Source: a virus
Direction: 5' to 3' (one strand)
Length of the DNA: 44,713 nt
IMG/VR virus record: IMGVR_UViG_3300044837_000010
Location: 1-44,713 of that record
Part shown: positions 3,078-43,182 of the stretch, one piece after another
Layout of the letters: each line of letters begins with the position of its first letter
Numbering within the stretch: the stretch's first letter is position 1
The notes under the pieces: model-generated
Database searches by the model: none
Told to the model about the DNA's origin: nothing
What the model saw: only the letters and a program-made list of their open reading frames with translations
Program-made: the position numbers and the translations under genes

Positions 3078-3464
3078 ATGTCATGGAATAACGAAGTAGG
3101 AATTGAGTCATTCAAAGATAAAGTTTTCGTTCGCGTGGAATTGATCGGAGACGATGAAATCCATTTCGAGGATTCAGACGGCGGAAAATTTAAGATGTAT
3201 CACGATCAGGATTGTTGCGAACATGTTTATGTTGAATCAATAGTCGGAGAGCTGACGGATTTGATCGGCAATCCTATTTTGCTTGCAGATTTGGCATCAA
3301 GTAACGAGCGACCAAAGGAATTGCCAGTTCCTGAATATGAGGACGATTCACAAACATGGACTTTCTACAGGCTGGCAACGATCAAGGGCTATGTTGATAT
3401 CCGCTGGTACGGTTCGTCAAATGGCTATTACAGCGAGTCGGTAACTATCGAGAAAATGGAATGA
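3078..3464 (+). CDS. DUF7448-like phage protein
   Basis: 128 residues after an AAAGGA site. The family pattern is clear: a beta-rich N-terminus with F.DSDGGKFKMYHDQDCCE, then VGELTDLIGNPIL, and a C-terminal WTFYRLATIKGYVDIRWYG with SNGYYSES. The paired Cys in DQDCCE and the WYGSSNGYYSE stretch are the most conserved parts as I know the family. It occurs in many phages with unknown function. The stop overlaps the next small membrane gene (ATGA). Confidence 0.8.
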   Translation: MSWNNEVGIESFKDKVFVRVELIGDDEIHFEDSDGGKFKMYHDQDCCEHVYVESIVGELTDLIGNPILLADLASSNERPKELPVPEYEDDSQTWTFYRLATIKGYVDIRWYGSSNGYYSESVTIEKME

Positions 3465-3619
3465 ATTGGCTACTTGACCCGCAAATATTCCTAAAGGTAA
3501 CGACTGCACTATTCATATTTGGCGCGGTTGCTCATCTGTTTAAGATGAACTGGCCGGAATTCACATATCACGCCGCTGCTGCGGTGTTGCAAATTTCTGT
3601 TTTATACATGGGTAAATAA
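3461..3619 (+). CDS. Small membrane protein (52 aa)
   Basis: Starts in an ATGA overlap with the DUF7448-like gene. Two hydrophobic stretches (about residues 12-26 and 38-50) are separated by a short loop with FKMNWPEF, suggesting a two-span membrane protein. No family recognised. Confidence 0.5.
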   Translation: MNWLLDPQIFLKVTTALFIFGAVAHLFKMNWPEFTYHAAAAVLQISVLYMGK

Positions 3620-3696
3620 TGACACTTAATCAATTGAAAGCCTGCGCAATAATCTCAAGTGTTGTTTTTTGGTTGTGGGTACTGAAAGTAATTTGA
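3619..3696 (+). CDS. Tiny membrane peptide (25 aa)
   Basis: The ATG shares a base with the upstream stop (TAATG). One hydrophobic span (about residues 8-24, Ile, Val, Trp and Phe). Chance is possible at this length; the overlap and composition favour a real peptide. Confidence 0.4.
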   Translation: MTLNQLKACAIISSVVFWLWVLKVI

Positions 3697-3704
3697 GGAA
3701 ACCT

Positions 3705-3758
3705 ATGTACGCTATACAATGGCTTATCGAGAAGATTTTTAAAGATTTGAAGTGGTGA
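3705..3758 (+). CDS. Possible 17-aa peptide just upstream of tmRNA
   Basis: A GAGGAAACCT ribosome site precedes an ATG that opens a 17-codon amphipathic peptide ending at the first hairpin of the tmRNA region. It may be a real peptide or merely a spacer. Low support. Confidence 0.25.
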   Translation: MYAIQWLIEKIFKDLKW

Positions 3759-3769
3759 AAATCGCTTTC

Positions 3770-3910
3770 ACACTGTAACGAAGCGCAGTTAAAAGACAGT
3801 GTTGGCCAGCCGGAAAAGTAGCGGCAAGAATTGATGTAGAAAAGAATTGTCGTAATTCCTTTTAAGTAAAGGCATTCTGGACGCGGGTTCGATTCCCGCC
3901 GCCTCCACCA
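3770..3910 (+). ncRNA. tmRNA acceptor piece (3' half)
   Basis: It begins near a 7-bp helix (ACACTGT 3770-3776 with ACAGTGT 3796-3802) that could be part of a pseudoknot. A CCTTT/AAAGG hairpin, the P2 strand, the T arm and the CCA end follow. A separate GTGAAA/TTTCAC hairpin at 3755-3771 partly overlaps and may mark the processing site. The 5' end of the mature piece cannot be fixed from sequence alone. Confidence 0.75.
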
Positions 3911-3936
3911 TAAGAGTTTCGCAGGGCTTTTATGAT
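3911..3936 (+). other. Intervening linker of permuted tmRNA precursor
   Basis: 26 bases between the CCA end and the GGGGGCG end. Together with flanking bases, CATAAGAG (3909-3916) and CTTTTATG (3927-3934) pair over 8 bp with one G-U. This stacks the linker as a hairpin on top of the acceptor stem. Such a linker is expected to be removed by tRNA-processing nucleases (RNase P at the 5' acceptor end; 3' nucleases at the CCA). Confidence 0.8.
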
Positions 3937-4310
3937 GGGGGCGACAAGGTTTCGACAGAGTGAGATAGCAGCGAAGGCGGCACGGTAGGCGATGACCGAA
4001 AATCAAGCAAGCATAATAAATGCAAACGATGCAAACTTCAAAGTAGCGGCTAACGCCTAAACGCTTTGTGAGGAATGGCCGGAGCCTTATAATCGAAAGA
4101 CCGGCTACAGAATAACTTGCAGTTATGCCGAACACGGAAGGCCGTGTAAGCCGGAACGGAAACCGGCAGATATTTCCCCGCCTCTAACTCACGATCTACG
4201 TGTGAGCCACTACCGGGTAAAGTAGTGGGATAGAAGACAGTGAAGCGCATAACTGAACGTAGAGATGCGAAGAGGTCACAACGCAAATTGTGATCGCAGC
4301 CGGTGAAAGC
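3937..4310 (+). ncRNA. tmRNA coding piece (5' half) with structured tail
   Basis: GGGGGCGACAAGGTTTCGACAG opens the piece with acceptor strand and D-like arm. A pseudoknot-like segment (about 3975-4005, with CGGT/ACCG) and an A-rich stretch lead to the resume codon. After the tag, a run of hairpins continues: ATAACT/AGTTAT (4112-4126), CACGG/CCGTG (4133-4146), GCCGG/CCGGC (4150-4167), CTCAC/GTGAG (4188-4206), CCACTAC/GTAGTGG (4207-4228) and TCACAA/TTGTGA near 4276-4293. Whether all of this belongs to the mature coding piece is unclear. Confidence 0.65.
4022..4060 (+). other. tmRNA tag reading frame, ANDANFKVAANA-stop
   Basis: GCA AAC GAT begins the frame, matching the common AND- start of proteobacterial tags. 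The frame continues to a TAA at 4058-4060 and encodes 12 residues. A second in-frame GCA AAC at 4031 could also serve as resume site. The C-terminus is VAANA, where known tags mostly end in LAA or VAA. Inserting one T after GCGGCT would restore a -VAA stop, so the extension may come from a one-base change. Confidence 0.8.
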
Positions 4311-4340
4311 CCCGCAAGAATTCTAGTGAGAGAGGAAATT

Positions 4341-4550
4341 ATGAATGATAATGGAAAAGGCTATGAAATAGCCAATGTGCAAAGCGATATTGAAAATAGA
4401 AAAATCAGTTTTGATGTAATAATACCCGGATTAAATGATGCAGAGATAGCTATTGAAGAGCGCTCTGAAATAAGAAAATTTCACGAGGATATTGCAAAAG
4501 CTTTGCTGGAAAAGTTTCTAACTATCAATAAAGTTCCATGTAATGATTGA
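4341..4550 (+). CDS. Hypothetical protein (69 aa)
   Basis: Starts at the ATG with AGAGAGGAAAT upstream; the frame is open further back into the tmRNA tail but without a better start. The sequence is alternating strands and a C-terminal amphipathic helix (FHEDIAKALLEKFLT). It may be distantly similar to the protein encoded at 2762. No family recognised. It overlaps the next gene by 8 bases. Confidence 0.55.
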   Translation: MNDNGKGYEIANVQSDIENRKISFDVIIPGLNDAEIAIEERSEIRKFHEDIAKALLEKFLTINKVPCND

Positions 4551-6120: not shown

Positions 6121-6162
6121 CATGGAAGAAGTAAGCCAAAGCCGGGAAGGGTGGGACGATTA

Positions 6163-6654
6163 ATGTCAGCCCCGCTAGGTAATTCGTTCTGGAAAATGGC
6201 CGCGCAACCCGGCAGGCCGCGTAAGTTCGAATCTCCAGAGGAACTTTGGGAGTTGTGTTCTGAATACTTCCAATGGGTAGAAGACAACCCACTATATGAA
6301 ATGAAAGCGTTTGCATTTCAAGGAGTGGTGACTCAAGAGCCTGTTGCAAAAATGAGAGCAATGACGCTGAATGCCTTGACTTTGTATCTTGGCATCAGTG
6401 ATGAAACTTGGCGCTTATACAAGACAAGAGAAGAGTTTATTGGTGTCATCTCACAATGTGAAAAATGCATATACGATCAGAAGTTCTCAGGCGCTGCCGC
6501 CGATCTTTTGAATGCAAATATTATCTCGCGTGACCTTGGTTTGATGGATAAATCGCAGCTAGACATTAGCAATCCAGACGGAAGCCTTACTCGCCCACTA
6601 ATCATCCAACTTACTGCTCCTGATGACAAAAGCGGTGCCGACAGCGAAGATTGA
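6163..6654 (+). CDS. terS: Terminase small subunit (GP3-package type)
   Basis: 163 residues. The sequence has the pattern of the gp3-like DNA-packaging family. [23 protein letters not shown] is followed by a [16 protein letters not shown] helix-turn-helix segment, KTREEF, an [25 protein letters not shown] helix and a flexible tail. It recognises the packaging site and regulates the motor subunit. The start at 6163 is preferred because GGGAAGGG lies about 8-15 bases upstream; a GTG at 6151 is possible. It overlaps the large-subunit gene by 32 bases, an unusually long overlap. Confidence 0.88.
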
Positions 6655-7894
6655 GCTTCCGCCTAAGCTAATCCCTATATTCACGGGAGAGGCTAGGTAT
6701 CGTGGTGCTTATGGCGGTCGAGGTAGCGCGAAGACTCGCTCTTTTGCATTGATGACTGCCATACGAGCATACATGCTTGCAGAGGGCGGCTCATCCGGCG
6801 TTATTCTATGTGCGCGTGAATTTATGAATAGTTTGTCTGATTCTTCTATGGAGGAAATCAAGCAGGCTATTCGCTCTATTCCGTGGCTAGACGCTTATTT
6901 CGAGATAGGCGAACAATTCGTCCGCACCAAGAACAGACGAATCTCATACGTGTTCTGCGGCCTACGCACGAACCTTGACAGCATCAAGTCTAAGGCGCGC
7001 ATTCTCATCGCGTGGATTGATGAAGCAGAATCTGTCTCGGAGGTTGCTTGGCAAAAGCTTTTGCCGACTGTACGTGAAGAAGATTCCGAGTGCTGGATAA
7101 CGTGGAACCCTGAACTAGACGGAAGCCCTACGGATAACCGTTTCCGAAAGCAAATTCCAGATAACGCCAAGATTGCCGAATTGAACTATGAGGATAACCC
7201 TTGGTTTCCTGATGTTTTGGAGCAAGAGCGCTTAAACGATTTTGATCGCCTTGACCCGCAAACCTATGCATGGATATGGGAAGGCGCATATCGAGAGAAT
7301 TCTGACGCGCAAGTATTCTCTGGGAAATATCGCATTGCGGAATTTGAGCCGAAAGAGAATTGGCATGGGCCATATTATGGGCTTGACTTCGGATTCGCGC
7401 AAGACCCTACCGCTGGCGTTAAGTGCTGGATTGATGAGACTAGAGAGCGCCTTTACATCGAATACGAAGCCGGAAAGATTGGCTTGGAGCTTGATGATAC
7501 TGGTGCATTCATAACTGAACGAATCCCCGGAATAGAAAGAAATGTAGTGCGCGCTGATAATGCTAGACCGGAATCAATTAGCTATCTTGCTCGTCATGGC
7601 GTTCCATTGATTCAGGCGGTGACAAAATGGCCGGGATCGGTTGAGGATGGCATTAGTCACATGCGCAGCTATAAAGAGATAGTCATTCACTTCCGTTGCA
7701 AAGAGATAATCAAAGAGTTCCGCATGTACAGCTATAAGGTTGATCGTCTGACTGGTGATATTAAAACTGATGTAGTCGACAAGTGGAATCACTATATTGA
7801 TGCAATCCGCTACGCTCTGAACCAAATGATCCAAGGTAAAGGCCCTCTACGCATAAATAAAACTGCATTAGCAAATGCAGCAAGAAGGCGCTAA
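6623..7894 (+). CDS. terL: Terminase large subunit (Terminase_3/PBSX type)
   Basis: 423 residues: the ATP-driven DNA-packaging motor with a headful nuclease. Walker A GGRGSAKT is at 31-38. Walker [11 protein letters not shown] is at 127-136 with catalytic D133/E134, and the coupling segment WITWNPE follows. The C-terminal RNase H-like nuclease has Asp at 255 (GLDFG), 312 (ADNARPES) and 393 (DAIRYAL), which form the expected metal-binding triad. All key residues are intact. The start is inside the end of the small-subunit gene. Which packaging mode is used (headful or not) cannot be read directly; the circular closure of the window fits headful. Confidence 0.95.
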
Positions 7895-41958: not shown

Positions 41959-43182
41959 ATGTCATATCAAGCGATTCAGGGAAGTAAAGGCGGCCTCATT
42001 AAAGCATGGGTCAATGGGGTGCAATTAGAAGATTCCGCACGAACTCAACTCGATAACATGGCTCAAATGCCATTCATTCATAAGCATGTGGCGATTATGC
42101 CTGATGTGCATTGGGGTATGGGTGCGACTATTGGCTCAGTGATTGCGACTAAGGGTGCAATTATTCCAGCCGCGGTAGGTGTTGATATTGGCTGCGGCAT
42201 GATTGCGCAACGCACTAGCCTGACCGCTTCAGACTTGCCAGATAACCTTTTTGGCTTGCGCTCAATGCTAGAAGCTGCAATTCCTCACGGACGAACCAAT
42301 AACGGCATGGCTGGAGATCGTGGCGCATGGGGTGTTGTTCCAGATGAGCAATTGCGAGAATTCTCTAAAATGTATGATGGAATCCGTCCGATTCTGAATA
42401 AGCATCAATCCATAGAAGCCGCGGCAAATCGCGCTGCTAATCATCTGGGAACTTTGGGAGGCGGTAATCATTTTGTTGAAGTATGCCTAGATGAAGAAGA
42501 TCGCGTGTGGGTAATGCTTCATTCAGGATCACGCGGAGTTGGCAATAAGATCGGTTCGCACTTTATCGAGTTGGCGAAGAAAGATATGCAGAAGTGGTTT
42601 ATCTCGCTTCCTGATGCTGATCTTGCATACTTGCCTGAAGGATCGGAAAATTTCAACGATTATTTGAAGGCAGTTCATTGGGCGCAAGATTTTGCCCGTA
42701 CTAATCGAGATTTTATGATGAAAGCCGCTTTGGGTGCATTGTCAAAAGCAGTTCCTAAACCGTTTGTTTGCGATTGTGGCGCGGTGAACTGCCATCATAA
42801 TTACGTTTCACATGAGAATCATTTTGGTGAAAATGTCCTTGTTACTCGAAAAGGAGCAGTAAGAGCGCGGCCTGATGATCTTGGGATTATTCCCGGCTCG
42901 ATGGGCGCAAAATCATTTATTGTCCGAGGCAAGGGAAATCCAGATTCGTTCTGCTCATGTTCTCACGGTGCTGGACGGTCAATGTCTCGCGCTGAAGCAC
43001 GTAAGCGCTTTACTTTGGAAGATCACGCTGCTGCTACTGCTTCGGTTGAATGTCGCAAAGATGCAGATGTGATTGACGAAACTCCAGCTGCTTACAAAGA
43101 TATTGACGCTGTTATGGCTGCGCAATCTGATCTAGTCAGCATTGAGCATACTTTGCGCCAAGTTGTTTGCGTGAAGGGTTGA
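41959..43182 (+). CDS. rtcB: RNA ligase of the RtcB family
   Basis: 407 residues, full family length. Joins 2',3'-cyclic phosphate or 3'-phosphate ends to 5'-OH ends using GTP and Mn. Metal ligands are in place: D76 and C79 (VGVDIGCGM), H171 (GGGNHFVEV), H188 (HSGSRG) and H288 (HENHFG). The guanylylated His is H336 (CSHGAGRSMSR). Also typical: MPDVHWGMGATIGSV near the start. In bacteria RtcB repairs tRNA and rRNA cut by toxins. In phages it may counter tRNA-cutting defences. The genome also carries a two-piece tmRNA, a possible substrate. Confidence 0.95.
   Translation: MSYQAIQGSKGGLIKAWVNGVQLEDSARTQLDNMAQMPFIHKHVAIMPDVHWGMGATIGSVIATKGAIIPAAVGVDIGCGMIAQRTSLTASDLPDNLFGLRSMLEAAIPHGRTNNGMAGDRGAWGVVPDEQLREFSKMYDGIRPILNKHQSIEAAANRAANHLGTLGGGNHFVEVCLDEEDRVWVMLHSGSRGVGNKIGSHFIELAKKDMQKWFISLPDADLAYLPEGSENFNDYLKAVHWAQDFARTNRDFMMKAALGALSKAVPKPFVCDCGAVNCHHNYVSHENHFGENVLVTRKGAVRARPDDLGIIPGSMGAKSFIVRGKGNPDSFCSCSHGAGRSMSRAEARKRFTLEDHAAATASVECRKDADVIDETPAAYKDIDAVMAAQSDLVSIEHTLRQVVCVKG

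Follow-up and report, generated by a model that had tools for sequence, protein, structure and literature searches.

The window analyzed here, an IMG/VR virus record of 44,713 bases taken at full length, carries a circularly permuted ssrA gene that almost certainly encodes a two-piece, beta-type, phage-borne tmRNA, judging from its sequence. ARAGORN places the gene at positions 3818–4151, the sole permuted tmRNA it reports in the window, and two Rfam families match the locus: beta_tmRNA (RF01850; 147 bits, E = 3.1e-45, cut-off 84) and tmRNA_permuted (RF04321; 141.3 bits, E = 6.9e-28, cut-off 47). The original prediction had the 3′ half preceding the 5′ half and expected a high-scoring beta_tmRNA match, and both hold. 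It had also assigned the whole of 3755–4310 to the tmRNA; this span does contain the gene, but the core is narrower (about 3818 to 4134 or 4151) and the remainder is non-coding flank.

Structure of the tmRNA

The locus consists of a tRNA-like 3′ half with an encoded CCA, a linker and a 5′ half that carries a tag reading frame with a resume codon and a stop, alignable to its homologues (Table 1). The two halves are joined by an acceptor stem, in which all seven predicted pairs are present, including the G3-U pair (G3939–T3904), and by the predicted P2, with seven pairs of which one is G-U (read from the sequence and in agreement with the Rfam model). The linker had been proposed to form an 8-bp hairpin on top of the acceptor stem. 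Its pairs begin within the CCA (C3909–G3934 ... G3916–C3927 and on), amounting to 8 bp or more, with as many as 11 on folding, and they covary.

Table 1. Features of the tmRNA locus and selected phage genes in the window.
Feature	Position	Strand	Basis or remark
5′ non-coding flank, beginning beyond the stop codon of the final small ORF upstream	3758–3817	+	read by eye
Hairpin GCCGGAAAAGTAGCGGCAA	3809–3827	+	5′ side
Acceptor piece (tmRNA 3′ half)	3818–3910	+	ARAGORN, Rfam, covariation; 5′ end of mature piece approximate
P2 3′ strand CATTCTG	3873–3879	+	read from sequence, in Rfam match
T arm	3883–3899	+	read from sequence, covariation
Acceptor 3′ strand CGCCTCC	3900–3906	+	read from sequence, covariation
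Encoded CCA, after A at 3907	3908–3910	+	read from sequence
Intervening linker, hairpin stacked on acceptor stem	3911–3936	+	folding, covarying pairs
Coding piece (tmRNA 5′ half: D-like region, tag frame, downstream stems)	3937–4151	+	ARAGORN (3′ end 4151), Rfam (3′ end 4134); mature end approximate
Acceptor 5′ strand GGGGGCG	3937–3943	+	read from sequence, covariation
P2 5′ strand CAGAGTG	3956–3962	+	read from sequence, in Rfam match
Tag reading frame ANDANFKVAANA + TAA	4022–4060	+	ARAGORN, alignment to homologues
3′ non-coding flank, series of predicted hairpins	4152–4330	+	structure mildly above background
Second hairpin-like copy GCCGGTGAAAGCCCCGCAA	4299–4317	+	3′ side
Terminase small and large subunits, downstream of tmRNA	6151–7894	+	phage gene match
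RtcB-type RNA ligase	41959–43182	+	gene match

Across 24 distinct permuted tmRNAs, 96.4% of the cells in the T stem, acceptor stem and linker hairpin are paired, against 53–61% when the pairing is slid. Two-sided changes occur in 15 of the 20 pairs (in at least one sequence each), none of 500 shuffles did as well, and the acceptor G-U pair is identical in all 24 sequences. The predicted fold of the linker on the acceptor stem thus has direct comparative support. Together with the Rfam E values, covariation over these relatives excludes a chance origin. A standard one-piece tmRNA (RF00023) was rejected, since both ARAGORN and Rfam find the halves in reversed order. The GOLLD RNA family (RF02032) gave no match in the window at its gathering threshold, nor at E ≤ 5 over 3600–4400.

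Peptide tag

Homology puts the resume codon, GCA, at 4022. The resulting tag of 12 amino acids ends in -VAANA and does not have the C-terminal Ala-Ala, an ending that is usual for permuted tmRNA tags, if not strictly defining. Among 76 permuted tmRNAs compared (with L380 being a duplicate of contig L128), 73 tags end in -AA; the three exceptions are the window, contig L128 (VAAFA; full tag ANAFTQAQIAIAKAAASAKAEVAAFA) and the Burkholderiales locus L276. A single-base deletion or assembly error behind the odd ending is less likely given the VAAFA of L128 and the alignment of GCCTAAACGCT with L298 and L299, which suggests ordinary variation in tag length.

ClpX recognises C-terminal residues of the ssrA tag, and proteins carrying the -VAANA tag may be poorer ClpXP substrates; among the publications searched, none addressed the degradation of such tag ends. 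This unusual feature is the most useful new lead from the window tmRNA, posing the question of whether phages rescue ribosomes while changing the fate of the tagged proteins.

Genomic context and distribution

Genes for terminase, portal, head maturation protease, major head protein, sheath, tape measure, baseplate and recombination were found in the record, and the tmRNA is regarded as phage-borne because it lies among head, tail and packaging genes. Phage genes flank it on both sides, so host contamination was rejected. A fragment left at an integration site is disfavoured, as the gene is full-length and none of the 40 ORFs scanned against PHROGs is an integrase. An RtcB-type RNA ligase, with a possible role in RNA repair, is encoded near the other end of the window.

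By terminase, the nearest named phage is Pseudomonas phage Amjad_SA (75%), in which a search with the permuted model revealed no permuted tmRNA, and the best relative in reference genomes comes from Alcaligenes pakistanensis (71%). Four hosts of terminase relatives (Alcaligenes, two Acinetobacter and Mixta) possess a standard one-piece tmRNA, with no permuted tmRNA above cut-off.

L128, a contig with a terminase 75% identical to that of the window, has a permuted tmRNA in the same place as the window, some 2.9 kb before the terminase gene. The L128 copy (1200–1480) lies in roughly 800 nt of non-coding sequence. Ten phage records were searched with the model, comprising eight IMG/VR relatives (L128's own included) and two named phages; only L128's was positive, which points to a sporadic, dispensable gene. 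The upstream gene (3078–3464) as a query retrieved 80 relatives, none of them with a tmRNA.

Permuted tmRNAs are common in viral contigs: a linker-pattern search of IMG/VR yielded at least 120 loci, and ARAGORN reports a permuted tmRNA in 44 of the 120 listed. The model and ARAGORN also identify them in four named phages, Acinetobacter phages BUCT628 (tag ANDNVFGAKTLAA) and vB_AbaM_3098 (ANDSTFGTRALAA), Xanthomonas phage XacN1 (ANANTFDYALAA) and Alcaligenes phage QDWS595 (ANDNVYAAAA). None of these four records annotates the gene as a tmRNA, so several phage records contain tmRNAs that go unlabeled as such. In XacN1 (L205 2990–4772), a GOLLD RNA lies about 1 kb downstream of the permuted tmRNA, within 2.5 kb that contain no annotated genes.

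The closest sequences to the window tmRNA belong to phage-like contigs (L226 and L227; 81% over 190 nt). In the tree it pairs with XacN1 (support 95/86) and is not placed in the supported Burkholderiales groups. The permuted cut-off was exceeded in 21 of 399 genomes from the order Burkholderiales. Of the 16 with strong hits, three (L273, L274 and L276) also possess a standard tmRNA, and the genes scanned near their permuted copies are not phage-like. A plasmid search produced two short matches only; a short similarity to the window tmRNA is located at 52352–52415 of Pandoraea oxalativorans plasmid NZ_CP011518.2.

Flanking non-coding block

The tmRNA gene lies within about 570 nt devoid of ORFs of annotated size. 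A 26-nt direct repeat (73% identity) is found on both sides of it. Across the plus strand of the window, the motif GCC-n-AAAG-n-(C/G)GCAA is confined to two sites, 3809 and 4299, each of them at the tmRNA. It occurs in 0.3% and 0.2% of dinucleotide shuffles of the flanks, figures that overstate the case, as the motif was defined after viewing the window and BUCT628 sequences. BUCT628 has the same motif on both sides of its tmRNA, an arrangement seen in no other permuted tmRNA locus compared. The flanks fold slightly more stably than their shuffled versions (z of about −2 to −2.7), and z is as low as −3.8 in some parts of the window elsewhere. No Rfam family matches the flanks, and scans for promoters and terminators found no more than in shuffles.

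The BUCT628 tmRNA is situated inside a mosaic non-coding region common to 74 Acinetobacter phage records. In Acinetobacter phages (L203 39150–40100; L217–L224), an unannotated modular non-coding region has constant stems (TTGATCG/CGATCAA and TTAGAGAAGTGAA/TTCACTTCATCTAA) enclosing highly variable arms, and the tmRNA is the only Rfam match in the loci scanned. In BP10, the parts that flank the BUCT628 tmRNA are joined directly.

Putative function and alternative explanations

Most probably, the window carries a functional phage-encoded permuted ssrA of the beta type, whose two-piece tmRNA would use host SmpB. This reading draws on the Rfam and ARAGORN matches, the covariation, the intact resume codon region and stop, the L128 copy in the same place, the phage tmRNAs that are its nearest sequences and the published two-piece phage tmRNAs; a role in trans-translation is likely on these sequence features. 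Against it stand the sporadic presence, the tag end unlike nearly all others and the lack of an SmpB gene in the record, because of which host SmpB would be needed.

Read along the sequence, a single gene encodes first the acceptor piece, which includes the CCA, then the linker hairpin and lastly the coding piece, bearing the acceptor 5′ strand and the tag frame. By analogy with established work on permuted tmRNAs, host tRNA-processing enzymes would cut the precursor, with RNase P acting at about 3937 and 3′ trimming reaching about 3910, leaving two RNAs held together by the acceptor stem and P2. The G3-U pair would allow charging of the product with alanine, and the product would act with host SmpB in trans-translation during infection. 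It could plausibly compete with host tmRNA, or add to or replace it at times when phage mRNAs or the decay of host mRNA cause many ribosomes to stall.

The endings VAANA and VAAFA, set against the prevailing -AA, allow another role, in which a modified tmRNA frees ribosomes but adds a stabilising or rerouting tag, or interferes with host tmRNA, so that its main function is protein fate in infection and not quality control. The tag-less tmRNA of phage DS6A inhibits endogenous tmRNA in E. coli, as cited in PMC11915505, which is in line with such interference; with only two related cases, and a tRNA-like part and tag frame otherwise normal, we consider this role unlikely. Alternatively, the tmRNA may be one part of a bigger non-coding phage RNA (about 570 nt here), with a role that depends on the whole, comparable to tRNAs in GOLLD linkers. 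The paired motifs, exclusive to the window and BUCT628 among the loci compared, the mosaic region around the BUCT628 gene and the GOLLD RNA of XacN1 are consistent with it, but the post hoc motif, the mild folding signal and the flanks free of Rfam families make it quite improbable. A more novel reading joins both ideas for this phage group, with a tag end changed to -VAAxA that lets rescued proteins escape or be rerouted from ClpXP and a tmRNA exchangeable between matched hairpins of a longer phage non-coding RNA, a combination we regard as unlikely. A captured ssrA relic or passenger, for example from imprecise excision, that has lost expression or processing would account for the sporadic occurrence; a full-length gene whose halves and linker still pair, an open tag frame and the second copy in L128 render it very improbable indeed.

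Comparison with known systems

The functional tmRNA favoured here is a real, intact-looking further case of the phage two-piece tmRNAs already reported. What may set it apart is the tag end, the one-piece tmRNA in those hosts of related phages that were checked, and a long non-coding block in which, as in BUCT628, two similar small hairpins bracket the gene. Here the original prediction, right about a permuted beta-type phage tmRNA (as ARAGORN, Rfam, covariation and the phage genes indicate), erred on novelty: it knew of no well-described phage example, yet such tmRNAs are published (PMC9004378, PMC11915505). In PMC9004378, tmRNAs came from 402 of the 18,146 phage genomes and made up 133 unique structures, 53 of them two-piece; the work where RF04321 was built (PMC11915505) lists 79 unique phage sequences, counting every tmRNA form. 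The window confirms the beta type in phages whose lineage is related to those infecting Pseudomonas, Alcaligenes and Acinetobacter.

Methylophage Melnitz and other aquatic phages (PMC9004378) share with the window a phage-borne permuted ssrA with two pieces and a tag frame. However, the Melnitz copy belongs to the alphaproteobacterial type and comes with a glutamine riboswitch, whereas the window copy is of the beta type with no Rfam riboswitch match. The tmRNA-like RNA of mycobacteriophage DS6A, as cited in PMC11915505, likewise deviates from the normal tag, but is described there as having no tag frame, while that of the window is open. GOLLD RNAs, found near phage tRNA islands, may carry tRNAs in their linkers (PMC12286853); the family is present in XacN1 and unmatched in the window. 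XacN1, BUCT628, vB_AbaM_3098 and QDWS595 possess phage-borne beta-type permuted tmRNAs as well, but their tags end in -AA, unlike that of the window, and their flanks differ too. With the betaproteobacterial permuted tmRNAs, the window copy has in common the half order, G3-U acceptor, T arm, P2, linker hairpin and tag position; it differs in being phage-borne, in its -VAANA ending and in its divergence from the Burkholderiales copies.
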